Assembly: GCA_017857825.1 (NCBI GenBank)
Contig: JAFMCK010000004.1
Coordinates: 1 to 36,977, forward strand
From: Rhodospirillales bacterium
GTDB taxonomy: Bacteria; Pseudomonadota; Alphaproteobacteria; Rhodospirillales; Casp-alpha2
Direction: 5' to 3'
DNA: 36,977 bases
Below the pieces are notes generated by a model, which was not told the DNA's origin, did not search any database, and was given only the letters and a program-made list of their open reading frames with translations. The position numbers and the translations under genes are program-made. Positions 293 to 24,484 of the stretch are shown piece by piece (within the stretch, counting starts at the first letter, position 1; each line of letters opens with the position of its first letter).

Positions 293-1576
293 TCAATCCG
301 TTTCCGGCTCGGAGCTCCGTTCAATACGACGTTTCAGGCGCAAAAGCTCGCGACGGCGATTGTCTTCAGCAATCAGGTTTTCCACGAAGCGCCCTTGGAA
401 TTGATTGATGCCCACCGAGCGCCCGAAGTCGATGGCTTCGCGGTTGTCGCAGCGACATAATATCCACTTCTCCGGCCCATCGCGTTCAAGCATGCCGCTC
501 AACTGGTTGTGCACTTCTTCGCCACCATCGACCAGATTCGGATGCCAGACCAATTTCACCATGTCGGTGCCCAGACGCTCGCGGTCGATGACCGGCAAGG
601 TTTCAAGGGTGAGGCCGTCCAGCAACAAACGATAGCCTTTGGTCTGCACAAACTCGCGTGCGAACAAATACGACGATAGGTCCGAGAAGATATCTTCTTT
701 CTGCAATTCGATGACGATGGCGCCGCGTCGCGCTGCCGAAAGGTTGTCGTCGAACACTTGAAACTGGTTGGACAAAAGGGTTTTGACGTTGATGTTGAAG
801 CTGATGTCGCCGGAGATCGACACCGCGTCGGTTTTCATCAGCATCGATAAAACGCGCCGATCCAAAGTCTCGGTCAAATGCTGGAATAGCCAGCGGTTCG
901 ACACCAGGTTGACGCCTGGCAAAATTGTTTCGCGCAAATCTTGAATTGAAATAAACAGTTCGCTGAACCGTTGCTCAGGCACCATTTTTTCATCCACCAT
1001 GCAGATGAATTGACGGCGGACCAAGTTTGAAAGGTCGGCGCGTGACAAGGCGTCTTCGACTTTGGCCAACACGCTGGGGGTCAGCGGCTCGCCCTTTTTT
1101 TGTTTTTCCTTCAGCCGTTGGCGCGCGTCCATGCGACTGCGTGTTTCGGTCTGGCGCTTTTCCTCGGCCTCGGCCAGGCCTTGCGCCAGTTGGACGATTT
1201 CGTCGTACTGCGTCGCAGCGTCATACCAACTGGCGAAAACGCGCCCATCCGTGCCTTCATCTTCTACCAAGGGGTCATCGCCGAATAGGAAACGAATCTT
1301 TTGAACTGTGGTTTCCACCTGCGGCTTTATGGAATTTTTAAAGATAAAGAACAGATCTGAATTCTTCAGCGTGATCAGCTGGCCGCTCATGTCTTTGACC
1401 ATTTGCTCAAAGTGTCCACTGGCCGTCCGGATATGCTGCTCACGCCGATTAAATGGGCGCAGTTGAGACAGGTGCACTTGCACCACGCCGCGTCCGTCCT
1501 TGTGCTTCTCGAGCCGATGAATGTAGTCGACGAGCAGCTTTTCCTGCGACGGCATTTTATCCGGTGGCGTTGTCAT
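293..1576 (-). CDS. Degenerate EAL-domain-like protein (downstream member of a tandem pair)
   Basis: A 427-residue soluble protein, paralogous to its upstream neighbour (1599-2876). Both share an N-terminal block with VHLSQLRP (VHIHLSQLRP in the neighbour), a middle charged helical region and a C-terminal half laid out like an EAL phosphodiesterase. Positions matching EAL landmarks are NINV for the usual VNLS, VIEL for LEITE, LLLDGL for LDDFG, VKLVWHP for KIDRSF and a final FQGRFVENL for QGYLF. The EAL signature and most metal ligands are absent, so I infer it does not hydrolyse cyclic di-GMP and may be a binding or scaffold protein. The frame extends upstream to 1654, but ATG at 1576 is preferred: a GGAGG sits 11 bases upstream and this start lies just past the neighbour's stop. 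A two-gene operon is likely. Confidence 0.7.
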   Translation of the reverse strand: MTTPPDKMPSQEKLLVDYIHRLEKHKDGRGVVQVHLSQLRPFNRREQHIRTASGHFEQMVKDMSGQLITLKNSDLFFIFKNSIKPQVETTVQKIRFLFGDDPLVEDEGTDGRVFASWYDAATQYDEIVQLAQGLAEAEEKRQTETRSRMDARQRLKEKQKKGEPLTPSVLAKVEDALSRADLSNLVRRQFICMVDEKMVPEQRFSELFISIQDLRETILPGVNLVSNRWLFQHLTETLDRRVLSMLMKTDAVSISGDISFNINVKTLLSNQFQVFDDNLSAARRGAIVIELQKEDIFSDLSSYLFAREFVQTKGYRLLLDGLTLETLPVIDRERLGTDMVKLVWHPNLVDGGEEVHNQLSGMLERDGPEKWILCRCDNREAIDFGRSVGINQFQGRFVENLIAEDNRRRELLRLKRRIERSSEPETD

Positions 1577-1598
1577 ATGCGTTACTGCCTCCGCCGTC

Positions 1599-2876
1599 TC
1601 ATGCCGAGCCTGCCTTTGCTGCAGGTGCCTTCGGCTTTGCCTTCGGTTTGACATTGGACTTCATCATGGCTTGAACGAGCTTATCGATGAAATATCCCTG
1701 AAAGCGAGATACCCCGAGCCCCAGCCCGAATTTGACGGCTTTTTCACTGTCGACTCTGGCTAACACAATGCTGTCTTTGCCGGCTTGGCGCACCGTCTCT
1801 TTGAACATTTTTATGCGCCCGGCATCGTCAGCATCGTCTTCAAACGCCTTATCCCATGCGATTTTGATGAAATCTGGCTTCAGTGTCGAAGGATCAAAGA
1901 ACTGTATTGCTAAGGGGTTTGCGCCATCCACAATAACGCGATAGCCTCGGTCTTGTAGCATGTCGCGGGCATAGCCATAGGTGTTCATGTCGGCAAATAT
2001 ATCGATAACTTGGAACTCAATCAGCATCTTTGAGGCATGCTCGCCGACCACGCGATTGAAGTTGACAAAATCTCTGGAGAGCACAGTGCCGATATTCAAG
2101 TTCAGACTGATCGGGTCTTTCAACTCGGCAAAGTTCTTACGCCCGATTACGGCGAGTACGCGTTTGTCCAGTGTTTCCGTCAGATATTGAAATAGCCACG
2201 GGCTGGTAAACAGATTAACAGCCGGTGCGACGCGCTCTTTAAGTTCGCCCATCGCAACAAAATGTTCGCGAAATACCAATTCGCCCGCTTTGCCGGGCGA
2301 AATGCGGATGCAGGTCTGCTGGCGGATTAGGTCGGCAATGCGCGTCGACTGGAGCGTTTGATTGATGGCGGCAAGGTTCCGCGCGGTCAACGGATCACCG
2401 GCGTTCTGGCCTTCTTGTTCTGCACGGGTGCGCTTCATCTCATCGATGATTGCTTCGGCTTTAACGACCAGTTCTGAACTGACGGAGAAGAACGCTGCAA
2501 AATCTTCTTTTGAGGCGAGATCGTACCAAGTCGACAGTCGATCTTCGTATTCGTCTTGATCGCTTGCGAGCGGGTCCTCGCTAAATAGCGTGCGGACCTT
2601 CTCAATATACGGATCAATTTCTTCGACCATGACTTCGCGACAGACCAGCACGAGGTCTTGGTTCATCATCGGATAAAGTATCGCATCGGTGCTGTTGATT
2701 AAGTTATCGAAAGCGCGTGTGGCAATATTGATAAAGTGCGGTTGTCGGTTATTCGGCCTGAGTTGCGACAGATGTATATGCACGGCAAAGCAGCCTGTCG
2801 GATTTTCTTCAATCCGAGTAAGCTTTTCCAGGAGGGCAGCCTCCTGTGTCATGGATTTATCGAGTGGTTCGACCAT
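1599..2876 (-). CDS. Degenerate EAL-domain-like protein (upstream member of a tandem pair)
   Basis: A 425-residue protein with no signal peptide or membrane segment. The first ~100 residues include VHIHLSQLRP and a block resembling a ruined GGDEF-type fold (DLVLVCREV ... VRTLFSEDPL). The C-terminal half follows the EAL fold order: SLNLNIGTV, LIEFQVIDIF, VIVDGA, FIKIAWDKAF, LARVDSEKAVKFG and VSRFQGYFIDKL. The EAL signature itself and the DD motif are missing. It ends in a Lys/Ala/Pro-rich tail (about residues 405-425). The start is uncertain: ATG at 2876 has no clear ribosome-binding site, and an in-frame ATG at 2852 is possible. It is followed after 22 bases by its paralogue, so the pair probably arose by tandem duplication and is co-transcribed. 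Function is inferred only as non-catalytic and EAL-related. Confidence 0.68.
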   Translation of the reverse strand: MVEPLDKSMTQEAALLEKLTRIEENPTGCFAVHIHLSQLRPNNRQPHFINIATRAFDNLINSTDAILYPMMNQDLVLVCREVMVEEIDPYIEKVRTLFSEDPLASDQDEYEDRLSTWYDLASKEDFAAFFSVSSELVVKAEAIIDEMKRTRAEQEGQNAGDPLTARNLAAINQTLQSTRIADLIRQQTCIRISPGKAGELVFREHFVAMGELKERVAPAVNLFTSPWLFQYLTETLDKRVLAVIGRKNFAELKDPISLNLNIGTVLSRDFVNFNRVVGEHASKMLIEFQVIDIFADMNTYGYARDMLQDRGYRVIVDGANPLAIQFFDPSTLKPDFIKIAWDKAFEDDADDAGRIKMFKETVRQAGKDSIVLARVDSEKAVKFGLGLGVSRFQGYFIDKLVQAMMKSNVKPKAKPKAPAAKAGSA

Positions 2877-11604: not shown

Positions 11605-13938
11605 TTAGCGATAAATATAGATCGGGCTGGTCCAGCAAAGCGTGCCGTCTTCCTGCGTCAAACGAATGAAGATCGGATTGTCACCCTCGGACTTTAGTTC
11701 AAGGCGTCTGGTAAGTGAAAATGTCCGATGTTTGTTTTCCGATGGCATCCGGAAGATTTTCAAATACCGCGGCAATACATCGCTTTGATCGAACACTTCG
11801 TCTTCAAAGCCAATTTCCTCAAGTGGCACGCCCGCTTTGACCAGCGGGGTTTCGATTTTCAGCGTGCCGGCGTAGGGATCTTTGACCCATACATCAAAGC
11901 CGCCGATGTTGCCGGTCGTGAGTGCGCGCCATGCAAGCTCGGTTTCCGAGACGATATCCAGGGTCTTGTCGCGATTAAAGAAGTTGATGGCTTTGGCTTC
12001 GATGATGGCATTGTCAGATAAATGCGCGGTACCGTCCCAAATTACCTGACGGAAACGACCGCGGTATTCAGCGCCTTCCCACATTACGCGTAAGCGGTTG
12101 CCGAGTTCTTCTTGAGTATAGGGTCGGACGGTCTCGATAAGGTCGAGACCGTTGAAAATGTCGACCCGTTCAATCGGGCTTGCGGCGTGAATGTCGATGT
12201 TAAAGTCAACCTCGCCGCTCGGCAGATGCACGATATCGCCCATCATCGCACTGTCAGATGTCTGGCTGTCTGTGGGGCCGTTCCGAGGGTCATCGTGATA
12301 CAGGGTGCCGGCTTCCGTGAAATTTGCCTTCACGTCGATCATCATGCGGCCGCCGTGCCCGCCGGTGGTGGCATAGTGACGGCGTCGACGCATGCTTTCC
12401 ATAATGGCGTCGCGGCTTAGTTCCGGTGCTAAAAAGCAGGTCAGCCCGCCGACGGCGCCGAACAACGACGCCCCCGGATAACTCGCGCCCGGGCGGCCTT
12501 TGTGGCCGTCGGAGTTGGCGACGATACCGATCCGATAGCCCATTTCAAAGGCATCTTGGACCAGCCATTCAAAAGTGCCCCAACTGGAATGCACTTCCAT
12601 TGATTTCTCGAACCGCCCGTCATGGGCCATTTTGACGTCGGCGTATCTGCCGCCGCAGTGCGCGTAGCCGACTACGTCCCATTCTTTATCGCGGGCGAGG
12701 GCTTCGAACAATTCGGCAGCCGAGTTGCAGTCGGTGCTGATGTCCGAGCGGTCCGCGACCAACGCGTGGGATGAACGCCGCAGCGTGCGGCCTTCATCCG
12801 GGAAGTAAATGTTTCGGTCACCGCCAAGCCCGGTGTTGCCGGACCATTCGTAGCCCGGGATCGCGATGAATTCACCGGTTATGTCATAATGCGCGCACAT
12901 ATCATCAAGTTCGGACCAGAACGGGGATGTGATCTGGAAATCGTTACCCTGGTGGCCGGTGGCATCGACGAATGCGAGATCGCGGGCGAAACGGAAATAT
13001 TCATCCGCGCTGCCGGTGCCGATGGTCTCTTCCGACTGACCGTGCAGGTCGCCCCAATAATGCTTGAGCGCCGGGGCATCGGCAAAGCGGATCGGGTTTG
13101 TGGTGGTCACGACATCGCCGTTTTCATCCAAGAATTCGATGCATGCATCGCCGGCAGCACTGCCGCTGAGCCCACTGACTTCGACGGCGCGGGTGCCGGG
13201 TTGGATGCTGACGCTGGCGGGCATGCCGTCAACCGGACCGTTGGCGCGCAGCTTGAACGTGCGATCACATTGATCAGACGGATTGCCCCATTTGTCTTCG
13301 CCCTTGAATTTGACGGAGAACGTTTCACCCACGGCGCGCAGGGTCGGTGCGACGGCGACATAGGTTTCAGGCGCGCCGGGTACGATGTGGATCGTCGGTT
13401 GGTTCGGCACCGGCTGGTAGCAATAGGTGGCGATCGGATCAATCAGGGTGTGGAATTCGTAGCTTTCTTCGCAGAACGTTTGCAATCGCATGCCGGGCGA
13501 GCCTTGCGACGTGTCGCCAAGCTTGACGGTGATGGTATCGCCTTCACGTAGAAAGCCGCGTACGACCTTGATGTATAACGCACGGTCCCACGGGCGGACG
13601 TTGCCCTTTGGATCGTAGTGATATTGCAGCACGGCATCGTTGGAGGCGGTAATCGTGGTGAAGTTCGGACCGGTCGGGTTCTCGAACTGGGGGCGTGTTT
13701 GATCGCTGGCGAAACGGAAGCAAATGCGGATCGAACCGGAATCGTCGATCCCGAATTTACCGGCGGTGTAAACGAGGGTGAAGGTTTGATAGCTGCCGGC
13801 TTCGAAATCACCGGTTGGACTTAATGCGACCGTGCCGACCTCGTGCATAGGAACGGTGGCATCGATAGGTGTGCTGACCAGGCCGCCGGCCGGCGCGCCT
13901 GCTGCATCGTCCGGGCTGCCAAGCGGTTGCTCCGACAT
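11605..13938 (-). CDS. DUF3604-family, PHP-like metal-dependent protein
   Basis: A 777-residue protein without signal peptide. The first ~290 residues look like beta-rich, Ig-like structure. The middle carries a PHP-type metal site: YWGDLHGQSEET (first His pair), FVDATGHQGND, IPGYEWSG, VGYAHCGGRY and IVANSDGHKGRPG (His/Asp ligands), followed by RRRRHYATTGGHGGRMMID. This order matches DUF3604 proteins, whose function is not established to my knowledge; a phosphoesterase-like hydrolase is the family-level guess. The C-terminal ~200 residues are again beta-rich. ATG at 13938 is supported by GGAGAG nine bases upstream. It stands alone: the MscS remnant ends 18 bases beyond its stop, and the copper chaperone gene lies upstream in the same direction 132 bases away. 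Confidence 0.75.
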   Translation of the reverse strand: MSEQPLGSPDDAAGAPAGGLVSTPIDATVPMHEVGTVALSPTGDFEAGSYQTFTLVYTAGKFGIDDSGSIRICFRFASDQTRPQFENPTGPNFTTITASNDAVLQYHYDPKGNVRPWDRALYIKVVRGFLREGDTITVKLGDTSQGSPGMRLQTFCEESYEFHTLIDPIATYCYQPVPNQPTIHIVPGAPETYVAVAPTLRAVGETFSVKFKGEDKWGNPSDQCDRTFKLRANGPVDGMPASVSIQPGTRAVEVSGLSGSAAGDACIEFLDENGDVVTTTNPIRFADAPALKHYWGDLHGQSEETIGTGSADEYFRFARDLAFVDATGHQGNDFQITSPFWSELDDMCAHYDITGEFIAIPGYEWSGNTGLGGDRNIYFPDEGRTLRRSSHALVADRSDISTDCNSAAELFEALARDKEWDVVGYAHCGGRYADVKMAHDGRFEKSMEVHSSWGTFEWLVQDAFEMGYRIGIVANSDGHKGRPGASYPGASLFGAVGGLTCFLAPELSRDAIMESMRRRRHYATTGGHGGRMMIDVKANFTEAGTLYHDDPRNGPTDSQTSDSAMMGDIVHLPSGEVDFNIDIHAASPIERVDIFNGLDLIETVRPYTQEELGNRLRVMWEGAEYRGRFRQVIWDGTAHLSDNAIIEAKAINFFNRDKTLDIVSETELAWRALTTGNIGGFDVWVKDPYAGTLKIETPLVKAGVPLEEIGFEDEVFDQSDVLPRYLKIFRMPSENKHRTFSLTRRLELKSEGDNPIFIRLTQEDGTLCWTSPIYIYR

Positions 13939-16177: not shown

Positions 16178-16771
16178 ATGGACATCATCAGGTTTAGTGA
16201 GCTAACAGAAAGTACCTGGAAGAATGGAGGCGGGATTACCCGCGAAATCGCCTGCGCGACCCTCGGCGAAAACCGAATATGGCGGTTAAGTATGGCAGAT
16301 GTCACATGTGATGGGCCATTTTCCGCGTTCGCTGAATATGTTCGGATTCTCACAGTCGTGAAAGGTCAGGGCATGGTGTTGCAGAATGACGGTGGCAACA
16401 TTGATGCGGATCTTTGGCATCCTGTCCAGTTCAGCGGTGCTTTGAACGTAAATGCGCAGCTAAAATCGGGCCCCTCAACCAATTTAAACCTCATGTTTAA
16501 TCCGGCGTATTGCACCGGGGATGTCACGGCGCTCCATGGCCCGTGCAATAGGTCATTGGCCTTGGCCGAACAGCGCCTATTTGCCGTGCATAGCTTGGCG
16601 GGCGCCTTGGGGGTGAATGGGTGTTCGCCGCTTTTGCCGGGCGATACGGCGATCATCACTTCGGATGTTGGCCAGGTGGACTTGGCCGATGGCGACGCAG
16701 CACTGTTGATCCAAATAGATTTAAGCCGTCACGTCAGTTCCAATTCCGTGGTCTTCACCGCACGCCTTTAG
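16178..16771 (+). CDS. HutD/Ves-family protein
   Basis: A 197-residue cupin-fold protein. The family signature TWKNGGGITREIA is at about residues 13-25, followed by WRLSMADV and PFSAFAEYVRILTVVKGQGM, which match the double cupin HutD/Ves family. HutD is linked in some bacteria to histidine utilisation and is thought to bind N-formimino-glutamate or related ligands; Ves is a low-temperature-responsive homologue in E. coli. No hut genes are present here, so the metabolic link is not supported by context. ATG at 16178 lacks a strong ribosome-binding site but gives the family N-terminus. It is divergent from a LysR regulator and overlaps the convergent orphan gene by four bases. Confidence 0.82.
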   Translation: MDIIRFSELTESTWKNGGGITREIACATLGENRIWRLSMADVTCDGPFSAFAEYVRILTVVKGQGMVLQNDGGNIDADLWHPVQFSGALNVNAQLKSGPSTNLNLMFNPAYCTGDVTALHGPCNRSLALAEQRLFAVHSLAGALGVNGCSPLLPGDTAIITSDVGQVDLADGDAALLIQIDLSRHVSSNSVVFTARL

Positions 16772-17472
16772 CCGCGCGCCGGTGGTGCCGTGTCTGCATA
16801 GGCCGAAGAGTCGTATGACTCCGTATCCATCAGCGCATCCAGCCAGTAACCGGAACTGATGACCTCAATCTGCATCGCATCGTCACTCAGCGGATGCGTG
16901 TTGACAATCCACACCACTTCGCTGGCATTCGGAAAAGACGTTCCGACAAGTTCGTCATGATATAAGCGATGCAGGGCCGCTCGGTCATCCATGCCGTCGG
17001 CCAGCAGACGAGCCAGAAATGACTCGTTCAGTGCTGGCGTCAAAAGTGCTTTGGAGCGGGCGTCGTTGGCGGTGACGCTTAAGACAACACGAACTGCATC
17101 GGGCTTCGGGAACGAGCCCGGAAAAGCGGCATAGAGCAAACTGCCGGCGTTGAACATCCGCTCGTGCAGCGATGAGTCTGCATATTCTTCCCATAGCTTT
17201 TCATCAAGCATCTCCGTTGCGGCATTCCGCATCTGCCCGTCGCGAAGAATATCGGACATATCGTGTTTCAACACATGATAAGCCGCGTCCGCAGGTTTGT
17301 GATCCTGCAAAGACATCAGGCACATTTCGCGCTTTTCGTCGTCGCTCAATCCAGACTGATCGCCATATTCCAGGGCGTCGAGGAGGGTTGTATACTGTTC
17401 GGCTGTGCGGGCGCCCTCTATTTCAAGAATGTTCGAGAAACTGAGCACCTGAACATGAAAAGAATTTCCCAA
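16768..17472 (-). CDS. Protein of unknown function
   Basis: A 234-residue soluble, acidic protein that I do not recognise. It has no signal peptide or membrane helix and looks mainly helical. Notable stretches are LSDDEKREMCLMSLQDHK, DEKLWEEYADSSLHERMFNAG, VLSVTANDARSKALLTPAL and a C-terminal part with VVWIVNTHPLSDD. The start appears to be TTG at 17472, supported by GAAGG about nine bases upstream; no ATG near the N-terminus is in frame. It is transcribed towards the HutD-family gene, with the two stops overlapping, and lies 54 bases from the tRNA gene on the same strand. Codon composition resembles the neighbours, so it looks like a real resident gene. Confidence 0.65.
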   Translation of the reverse strand: MGNSFHVQVLSFSNILEIEGARTAEQYTTLLDALEYGDQSGLSDDEKREMCLMSLQDHKPADAAYHVLKHDMSDILRDGQMRNAATEMLDEKLWEEYADSSLHERMFNAGSLLYAAFPGSFPKPDAVRVVLSVTANDARSKALLTPALNESFLARLLADGMDDRAALHRLYHDELVGTSFPNASEVVWIVNTHPLSDDAMQIEVISSGYWLDALMDTESYDSSAYADTAPPARG

Positions 17473-22523: not shown

Positions 22524-23750
22524 GTGAGCGATCAAATAGACACCTCCGCACCCAAAAACAAGGGTGCGGAATCTTTGTGCGCGCCAGAGTCTCCCTCTGA
22601 GCTTGCTGAAGCCCCCAAGGGTGCTACCGCCGTCATCGTGCTCGGCGACGGCACCATTATTTGGGGCCGTGGCATCGGCGCTGCGGGATCATCCGTCGGC
22701 GAGGTGTGCTTCAACACCTCAATGACCGGCTATCAGGAAATCCTGACCGATCCCAGTTACGCCGGTCAAATCATCACCTTCACGTTTCCGCACATCGGCA
22801 ACGTGGGCACCAATCCCGAAGATATCGAAACCATCACACCGGTAGCGCGCGGCCTTATTCTCCGTGCCGATATCACCGAGCCTGGGAACTGGCGCGACAC
22901 CCAGCATTTGGATGGCTGGTTGAAGTCGCACAATTTGGTCGGTGTGTCCGGCATCGACACCCGGCGCCTGACGCGGCGTATTCGCGACGGTGGCGCACCC
23001 AATGGGGTGATCTGTCATGCACCGGACGGCGTGTTTGATATTCCGGCGTTGCTCGCCGAAGCCCAGGCGTGGCCCGGCCTTGAAGGCATGGACCTGGCCA
23101 AAGACGTGACCTGCCGGCAAAGCTACGGTTGGGATGAAACCCGCTGGGTGCTGGGCTCCGGTTTCGGCAAGCTGGAAAATCCGAAATACAACGTCGTCGC
23201 CATCGACTACGGCATCAAGCTTAACATTCTGCGCTGCTTGGCGAGCGCCGGCTGTAAAGTCACGGTCGTGCCGGCATCTGCCAGCGCCGAAGACATCATG
23301 AGCCACAATCCGGACGGCATCTTTTTGTCGAACGGTCCGGGCGATCCTGCCGCCACCGGCGAATATGCGGTGCCTGTGCTGCAAGATCTTCTTAAGACCG
23401 GCAAGCCGATCTTTGGCATATGCTTAGGCCACCAATTGCTGGCCCGCGCGCTCGGCTGCACGACATCGAAAATGCATCAGGGCCACCGCGGCGCCAATCA
23501 ACCGGTGCAGGACCTGGAAACGCGCCGCGTCGAAATCACCAGCCAAAACCACGGCTTCGCGGTTGACGGCAAAAACCTGCCAAAAGGCGTCTCCGAGACC
23601 CACGTATCGTTGTTCGACGGTTCTAACGAAGGCATCAAGTGGGACGGCCATCCGGTATTTTCTGTCCAATACCACCCGGAAGCGTCCCCGGGCCCCACCG
23701 ACAGCCACTATTTATTCGAACGCTTCACCAAACTGATGGACGAGGCGTGA
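22524..23750 (+). CDS. carA: Carbamoyl-phosphate synthase small subunit (glutaminase)
   Basis: A 408-residue subunit that hydrolyses glutamine and passes ammonia to CarB for carbamoyl phosphate, feeding pyrimidine and arginine synthesis. The N-terminal domain shows GEVCFNTSMTGYQEILTDPS, and the class I amidotransferase domain has SNGPGDP, the nucleophile Cys in GICLGHQLLA and the His/Glu pair in QYHPEASPGP. The start is uncertain. The frame opens at GTG 22473, which falls inside a likely promoter; GTG 22524 is preferred, although neither has a clear ribosome-binding site. About 30 residues precede the conserved domain. Unusually, carB does not follow directly: a foreign-looking gene starts on the last base of the carA stop codon. 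Confidence 0.93.
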   Translation: MSDQIDTSAPKNKGAESLCAPESPSELAEAPKGATAVIVLGDGTIIWGRGIGAAGSSVGEVCFNTSMTGYQEILTDPSYAGQIITFTFPHIGNVGTNPEDIETITPVARGLILRADITEPGNWRDTQHLDGWLKSHNLVGVSGIDTRRLTRRIRDGGAPNGVICHAPDGVFDIPALLAEAQAWPGLEGMDLAKDVTCRQSYGWDETRWVLGSGFGKLENPKYNVVAIDYGIKLNILRCLASAGCKVTVVPASASAEDIMSHNPDGIFLSNGPGDPAATGEYAVPVLQDLLKTGKPIFGICLGHQLLARALGCTTSKMHQGHRGANQPVQDLETRRVEITSQNHGFAVDGKNLPKGVSETHVSLFDGSNEGIKWDGHPVFSVQYHPEASPGPTDSHYLFERFTKLMDEA

Positions 23751-24484
23751 TGATCTCCCGACCGACCGTCGATTACGAAATCGCCGAAAAGTTAATTTTA
23801 TTTCGCCTTCATCTCGCTTTGGTGAAATTTGAAAATATCAATACGGAAATTGGTATGTTGGGGACTAAAGTAGGTGTCCCAACGCAGCTTTCGAATATTT
23901 GTGCCCAAAGATTAGTTCAGAGATCTTTTGTTGATATTGAGAGTGTTTCAAGTCTAATGGAGCATCCTCAAACGGGAGATCTTGTTGACTATGAAGAGAA
24001 GCGATTGAGTATTACTGAGGAAGGTATCAAAGAAGTTGAGGGGTGGTCGGATGATAGCTATCAGGCGATTGCATATCGAGCTTTGTTGTCGCCAGACGAC
24101 ACTGAGGATGAAGTTAATCAAAAACTAGAAGACAATATGCTTTCTAGTTTGAGGGGCATTGCACCGGCAGCAAATCGGTTCGTTTTAAAATCAGATAATG
24201 AAGACGTATGGAATGAAGCGAAGGCTTCGTTAAATGACGTTATTAATGCCCTAGAGAGTGAAAAATCATTAGATAATGAATTGGGCTCAGAAAAGCCCGC
24301 TGTTTTGAATGCGCTCAAATCAGCAAGAGCCCTTTTTGACGATACGAAAATGAAAATTGATATCGCGGTAGCGCTCATGGTTGAGCCATTGAAAGTGCTT
24401 GCTGTGCGTTATGAACAAACGGCTGCTGGTGCAGTGCTTACGACAGCTTTGGCAGTTATCGCGAAGTTTCTAGGATTATTATGA
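23750..24484 (+). CDS. Orphan winged-helix protein with hydrophobic C-terminal tail, inserted between carA and carB
   Basis: A 244-residue protein I cannot assign to a named family. Residues ~10-98 read as a winged helix: helices around ILFRLHLALVKFENINTEIG, PTQLSNICAQRLVQRSFVDI, then a wing ending KRLSITEEGIKEVEGW. Residues ~100-215 are charged and helical, rich in Glu, Asp, Ser and Leu. The last ~20 residues are hydrophobic (TAAGAVLTTALAVIAKFLGL), like a C-terminal membrane anchor. The ATG overlaps the carA stop by one base (TGATG), so it may be translationally coupled. The gene is visibly richer in A+T than all its neighbours, suggesting acquisition. It is intact, with no internal stops. 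Function is unknown; a regulator or defence-type membrane-linked protein are only guesses. Confidence 0.72.
   Translation: MISRPTVDYEIAEKLILFRLHLALVKFENINTEIGMLGTKVGVPTQLSNICAQRLVQRSFVDIESVSSLMEHPQTGDLVDYEEKRLSITEEGIKEVEGWSDDSYQAIAYRALLSPDDTEDEVNQKLEDNMLSSLRGIAPAANRFVLKSDNEDVWNEAKASLNDVINALESEKSLDNELGSEKPAVLNALKSARALFDDTKMKIDIAVALMVEPLKVLAVRYEQTAAGAVLTTALAVIAKFLGLL

Follow-up and report, generated by a model that had tools for sequence, protein, structure and literature searches.

A tandem pair of predicted degenerate GGDEF-EAL proteins with a half-erased EAL active site, conserved across an alphaproteobacterial order

Introduction

GGDEF and EAL enzymes make and break, respectively, the bacterial messenger c-di-GMP. 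The window analyzed here, which is the whole stretch of 36,977 nucleotides from contig JAFMCK010000004.1 (Rhodospirillales bacterium, assembly GCA_017857825.1), carries near its start two adjacent genes that raise the question of what an EAL protein does once its catalytic motifs have been altered. An earlier note, made from the sequence alone, proposed that they encode EAL-fold proteins with the catalytic signature erased, possibly a heteromeric assembly that senses c-di-GMP or has left that signalling altogether. We followed up this proposal by structure prediction, a residue census and a survey of related genomes.

Results

Gene pair

The two genes lie head to tail on the minus strand, and the tandem arrangement that had been described was found at the expected place:

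1599-2876, minus strand: protein A, predicted degenerate GGDEF-EAL protein, upstream gene of the pair, open reading frame of 425 amino acids
293-1576, minus strand: protein B, predicted degenerate GGDEF-EAL protein, downstream gene, 427 amino acids from a conserved ATG at 1576
296-367, minus strand: conserved basic C-terminal helix specific to B, EDxRRRxLLxLKRRIER (alignment and AlphaFold2)

In the list of open reading frames that of B is open as far as 1654, and a start there would overlap A. The start is most likely at 1576, 22 nt past the stop of A, because aligned orthologues begin at the residue encoded at this position (MTTPPD..PSQE). Pairwise comparison of A and B gave 30% identity along their length (E 1e-73), which bears out their description as two divergent copies, and the N-terminal HLSQLRP segment is indeed common to both. 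The basic C-terminal helix of B has no counterpart in A or in the single-copy relatives examined.

Fold and domains

The Pfam EAL model matched both proteins below its cut-off of 31.3 bits (A, 24.7 bits, 1.8e-5; B, 19.2 bits, 8.5e-4), and a phmmer search of A against the PDB returned no match. AlphaFold2 models built from 86 (A) and 88 (B) family members had mean pLDDT values of 90.2 and 87.4. The structure prediction and Foldseek comparison that had been suggested as a check confirmed an EAL-type beta/alpha barrel in the C-terminal part of each protein, and hhalign with EAL domains encoded elsewhere in this genome gave a probability of 89.

The barrel is not the only domain. The top-ranked PDB matches of both models were GGDEF-EAL double-domain proteins, aligned over 430-460 columns and thus along the whole chain: the GGDEF-EAL module of Vibrio cholerae LapD for A (E 6.5e-13) and PA0861 for B (E 1.1e-12), together with MorA, DosP and PA0575. 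Single EAL domains ranked after them, with E values down to about 1e-8 at a probability of 1.00, mostly superposing at about 5-7 Å with a TM score of about 0.6 on the target. The whole-chain RMSD to the double-domain matches was high (13-20 Å), as expected if the two domains sit at another angle.

In the models the N-terminal part runs helix, strand, two helices, beta hairpin, helix, strand, long helix. The HLSQLRP segment supplies the first strand and has His and Ser in place of the Asp through which cyclases bind metal, and the hairpin at the GGDEF position reads MNQDL in A and KNSDL in B. The GG(D/E)EF motif and the metal-binding Asp are without a match in the family, which has xNxD(L/I) and HLS instead. 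Since the predicted secondary structure is GGDEF-like and the whole chain, when searched with Foldseek, aligned in full length, the N-terminal block, previously called unusual, is best read as part of a degenerate GGDEF domain. By these predictions A and B are degenerate GGDEF-EAL proteins, with both domains present by fold and both without their catalytic residues:

2517-2846, minus strand: predicted degenerate GGDEF domain of A, residues ~11-120 (secondary structure, Foldseek, conserved S37, L39 and D74)
1680-2336, minus strand: predicted degenerate EAL domain of A, residues ~181-399 (residue mapping and alignment)
1217-1546, minus strand: predicted degenerate GGDEF domain of B, residues ~11-120 (AlphaFold2, Foldseek, alignment)
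365-1036, minus strand: predicted degenerate EAL domain of B, residues ~181-404 (alignment)

Active site

In structures of PA3825, metal-1 is held by Glu39, Asn98, Asp130 and Asp160, and metal-2 by Asp161, Asp183 and, with calcium, Glu217 (PMC5301497); TBD1265 provided the reference list of active EAL residues (PMC6629876). The corresponding positions were counted over 86 family sequences. The C-terminal part of the EAL domain was mapped by hhalign onto other EAL domains of this genome, and the Glu of EAL and the SPxxF segment were placed from the multiple alignment and our reading of it.

The metal-1 ligands were conserved almost without exception (Glu of EAL, Asn and the following Glu in 86/86, first Asp in 85/86), and so were the Lys of KID, the Gln of QG and the Trp of KxxW, each found in all 86 sequences. 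In A these are E204, N259, E287 and D317 for metal-1, with K338, W341 and Q393; their counterparts in B are E206, N261, E290, D320, K341, W344 and Q394. The second Asp is Gly in 81 of 86 sequences and otherwise Ala, Ser or Thr. At the Asp of KID most sequences have Ala, Ser, Ile, Val, Gly or Asn, and the place of the catalytic Glu is mostly taken by Cys, Ser, Ala or Gly. The Arg of ExLxR is replaced throughout (Ser 65, Ala 20, Gly 1), and the DFGTGYSS loop behind the first Asp is completely different. A new Arg, R374 in A and R375 in B, stands one position after the old catalytic Glu in 79 of 86 sequences by the hhalign mapping. Single-copy relatives from other orders follow this pattern too, with few exceptions.

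The alignment thus points to a half-erased active site, in which the metal-1 side is kept and the metal-2 side is lost together with the ExLxR Arg. That the same half is erased everywhere speaks for selection on the remaining one. The reading of these proteins as non-catalytic is well supported because the metal-2 ligands are gone across the aligned members. The catalytic signature had been called erased, which overstates the case when half of it is perfectly conserved: the EAL, DD and KID motifs are altered as described, but the Glu, the first Asp and the Lys within them are retained. Intact metal ligands had been named as evidence against the proposal, and over the 86 sequences the metal-1 site is intact and the metal-2 site is not.

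Distribution and ancestry

Relatives were found in 176 of 199 genomes of the order and, at E 1e-15, in 82 of 289 genomes of the class. Matches in a phylum-wide sample were limited to members of the same class, Alphaproteobacteria. Given this class-wide conservation, the pair is far beyond chance. Eighty loci were then compared, from named genomes that include Rhodospirillales metagenome-assembled genomes, Terasakiella, Magnetovibrio, Magnetospira and others. A stands directly ahead of B in 74 and is joined to it in a single frame in one (L106); the remaining five are cut by a contig end, so that all 75 loci with enough upstream DNA are paired. The genes are separated by a median of 14 nt, with an overlap of 4 in several pairs. 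In a tree of 66 sequences A forms one clade (support 98/94) and B another (100/94), with the single-copy proteins of other orders outside both. A single clade for each copy and constant adjacency indicate that the two-copy design is real and ancient.

In the order the neighbours, on the opposite strand, belong to the cobT/cobS/cobC side and to the sugar-nucleotide genes. They yield no functional clue to the pair, which would form a transcription unit of its own since the neighbours are on the other strand; A and B are probably co-transcribed.

The joined frame of L106 (2097-4688) encodes 863 amino acids in one metagenome-assembled genome, and in trial alignments every A and B row aligned to its B half. 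It is possibly a natural fusion, a lost stop codon or an assembly error; either of the last two may apply because the start of B seems retained. A second apparent fusion, G184, has the same joined frame on a contig whose length (5345) equals that of the L106 contig, and the two were counted as one case.

The genome of the window also holds a third, distant paralogue of 400 amino acids (C166:10032-10721; L003 ORF 1483-2685), whose EAL score is below the cut-off. By our reading, its neighbours resemble genes for a folate-dependent dehydrogenase and a urea-carboxylase-associated protein.

Relation to c-di-GMP signalling

The source genome encodes seven EAL and eight GGDEF domains above the cut-off, and therefore possesses ordinary components of c-di-GMP signalling. 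GGDEF proteins were present in 74 of 74 tested genomes with the family and in 29 of 39 without it (Fisher p = 1e-5), a difference that is an association and not a proof because the genomes are related and the sets were hand-picked, with small genomes favoured among the positives; shared ancestry or genome content may be its source. A search for family-positive genomes without GGDEF proteins found 0 of 74, whereas six lacked a clear EAL phosphodiesterase. The association with the flagellar protein FliM was weaker (35/41 versus 22/39, p 0.006). The GGDEF counts disfavour the suggestion that the proteins have departed from c-di-GMP signalling.

Discussion

Degenerate GGDEF-EAL proteins are already known as a kind, and the known ones differ in what they keep. 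Degenerate EAL domains that retain ExLxR, such as those of LapD and FimX, bind c-di-GMP; YdiV and STM1697 have no such binding or cleavage activity and work through protein contacts (PMC10333796). LapD of Pseudomonas fluorescens and V. cholerae has both domains degenerate and in the same order as A and B, and was their best or near-best full-length Foldseek match. It is, however, a transmembrane protein with a HAMP domain and a signalling helix, while A and B begin directly at the GGDEF domain and occur as a tandem pair. Their active sites are also the reverse of that of LapD, which has KVL at the EAL motif and so has lost the metal Glu (PMC3032553) but retains the c-di-GMP-binding arginine of the motif (PMC10333796); in A and B the Glu is kept and the Arg lost. 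The EAL domain of FimX resembles theirs in being non-catalytic and in retaining the Lys of KID and the Glu that coordinates metal in the EAL motif (PMC3527489), but FimX has the ExLxR arginine, binds c-di-GMP and carries REC and PAS parts. YdiV and STM1697 share the EAL fold and the lack of c-di-GMP cleavage; unlike A and B they are gammaproteobacterial, consist of EAL only, without GGDEF, and form no tandem pair. By the ExLxR criterion A and B are nearer to these two, although they have a GGDEF domain in addition and their metal-1 site is complete.

That position favours non-catalytic adaptors. We consider it about an even bet (probability roughly 0.5) that A and B are catalytically dead GGDEF-EAL regulators that cooperate as a pair and act by protein contacts in the c-di-GMP network. 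Each would be a cytoplasmic pseudo-cyclase fused to a pseudo-phosphodiesterase, belonging to an alphaproteobacterial family of which A and B are an adjacent pair, and would not hydrolyze c-di-GMP by the two-metal mechanism. Adjacency and the asymmetry of the copies suggest that A and B probably pair, in agreement with the heteromer envisaged earlier, and contact might be made through the EAL faces, the GGDEF faces or both. The preserved pocket, whether its role is structural or sensing, could bind a single metal and perhaps also a ligand with a phosphate group; the new Arg possibly fills the vacated metal-2 site, and the pair may contact its target through the basic tail of B. The metal-1 pocket is conserved more strictly than a pure adaptor requires, and this would fit ligand binding or residual chemistry.

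Alternatively, A and B could be the halves of a dimeric receptor of the LapD or FimX type, whose degenerate EAL pocket changes shape and still uses one metal to bind c-di-GMP. The overall architecture equals that of LapD by Foldseek, the metal-1 ligands, Lys and Gln are retained in the 86 sequences, every family-positive genome tested has GGDEF proteins, and YkuI, reported as single-metal in PMC3527489, was solved with bound c-di-GMP. Nonetheless, the Arg called determinative for binding (PMC10333796) is replaced in 86 of 86 sequences, so canonical c-di-GMP sensing, one of the two roles first suggested, is not favoured; with the loop past the first Asp replaced as well, we regard such a receptor as unlikely. 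The chance is somewhat slimmer that another ligand, for example pGpG or another phosphorylated nucleotide, is bound or cleaved by means of a single metal together with the conserved Lys and Arg. The invariant metal-1 set with K338, Q393 and W341, the newly conserved Arg adjoining the old catalytic Glu position and the persistence of the pattern in other alphaproteobacterial orders argue for it, but there is neither a candidate ligand nor a general-base Glu, and we know of no case of one-metal catalysis in EAL barrels. Slightly slimmer again is the chance that the two proteins are one-metal pseudo-phosphodiesterases joined in an obligate heterodimer, and that this heterodimer senses not c-di-GMP but some other ligand, for instance pGpG or a redox-related metabolite; if true, it would couple another input to c-di-GMP control.

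CsrD, like A and B, is degenerate in both its GGDEF and EAL domains, and a comparable role in steering RNA decay, with the basic tail of B touching RNA or RNase E, was considered. The sole NCBIfam match of B is CsrD (NF008281, E 0.0068), but its score is 14.7 bits against a cut-off of 663 and may reflect the EAL signal alone, and a search of the window for Csr RNA families found none. CsrD is also a single transmembrane HAMP protein (PMC3032553), unlike A and B, and that of Escherichia coli retains an ExMxR motif yet does not bind c-di-GMP (PMC10333796). A function of this kind is quite improbable. That the genes are decaying and functionless, for which the Pfam scores under the threshold could be cited, is hardly conceivable and is refuted by the open frames, the fixed adjacency and the residues invariant in the order and beyond. 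Order-wide adjacency, the preservation of half of the site and the uniform loss of the other half make conserved regulatory binding proteins, rather than decaying enzymes, most likely.

A search of the open-access literature for a description of this family found none. The family, its order-wide tandem duplication and the combination of metal-1 kept, metal-2 lost and Arg lost are new. It occurs in nearly all genomes of the order, yet its EAL domains are here sub-threshold for Pfam, and a census drawing its sequences from Pfam lists, such as that in PMC9756655, is expected to miss such members for this reason. The clean split, with metal-1 kept and both metal-2 and the c-di-GMP Arg lost, is a natural test of what else EAL barrels do apart from catalysis and the binding of c-di-GMP; being duplicated in tandem, the genes offer a genetically simple system.

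In the other alphaproteobacterial orders, a RegA/PrrA/ActR-like response regulator and a RegB-like kinase are frequent tail-to-tail neighbours of the single-copy relative. Such neighbours were seen at 13 of 40 loci, within about 2 kb at 10 (L165, L166, L167, L168, L171, L174, L175, L181, L182, L189) and further off at L159, L164 and L173. The pair at L159 was confirmed by NCBIfam NF033791 and NF033792, and the others were assigned by sequence clustering. The proximity could be old synteny or a functional tie to redox control.

Elsewhere in the window, the Pfam search gave no match for the frames at 16768-17472 (minus strand, 234 amino acids) and 23639-24484 (plus strand, 281 amino acids). The minus-strand gene at 11605-13938 encodes a large protein of DUF3604, a family without an assigned function (Pfam 4.7e-7).
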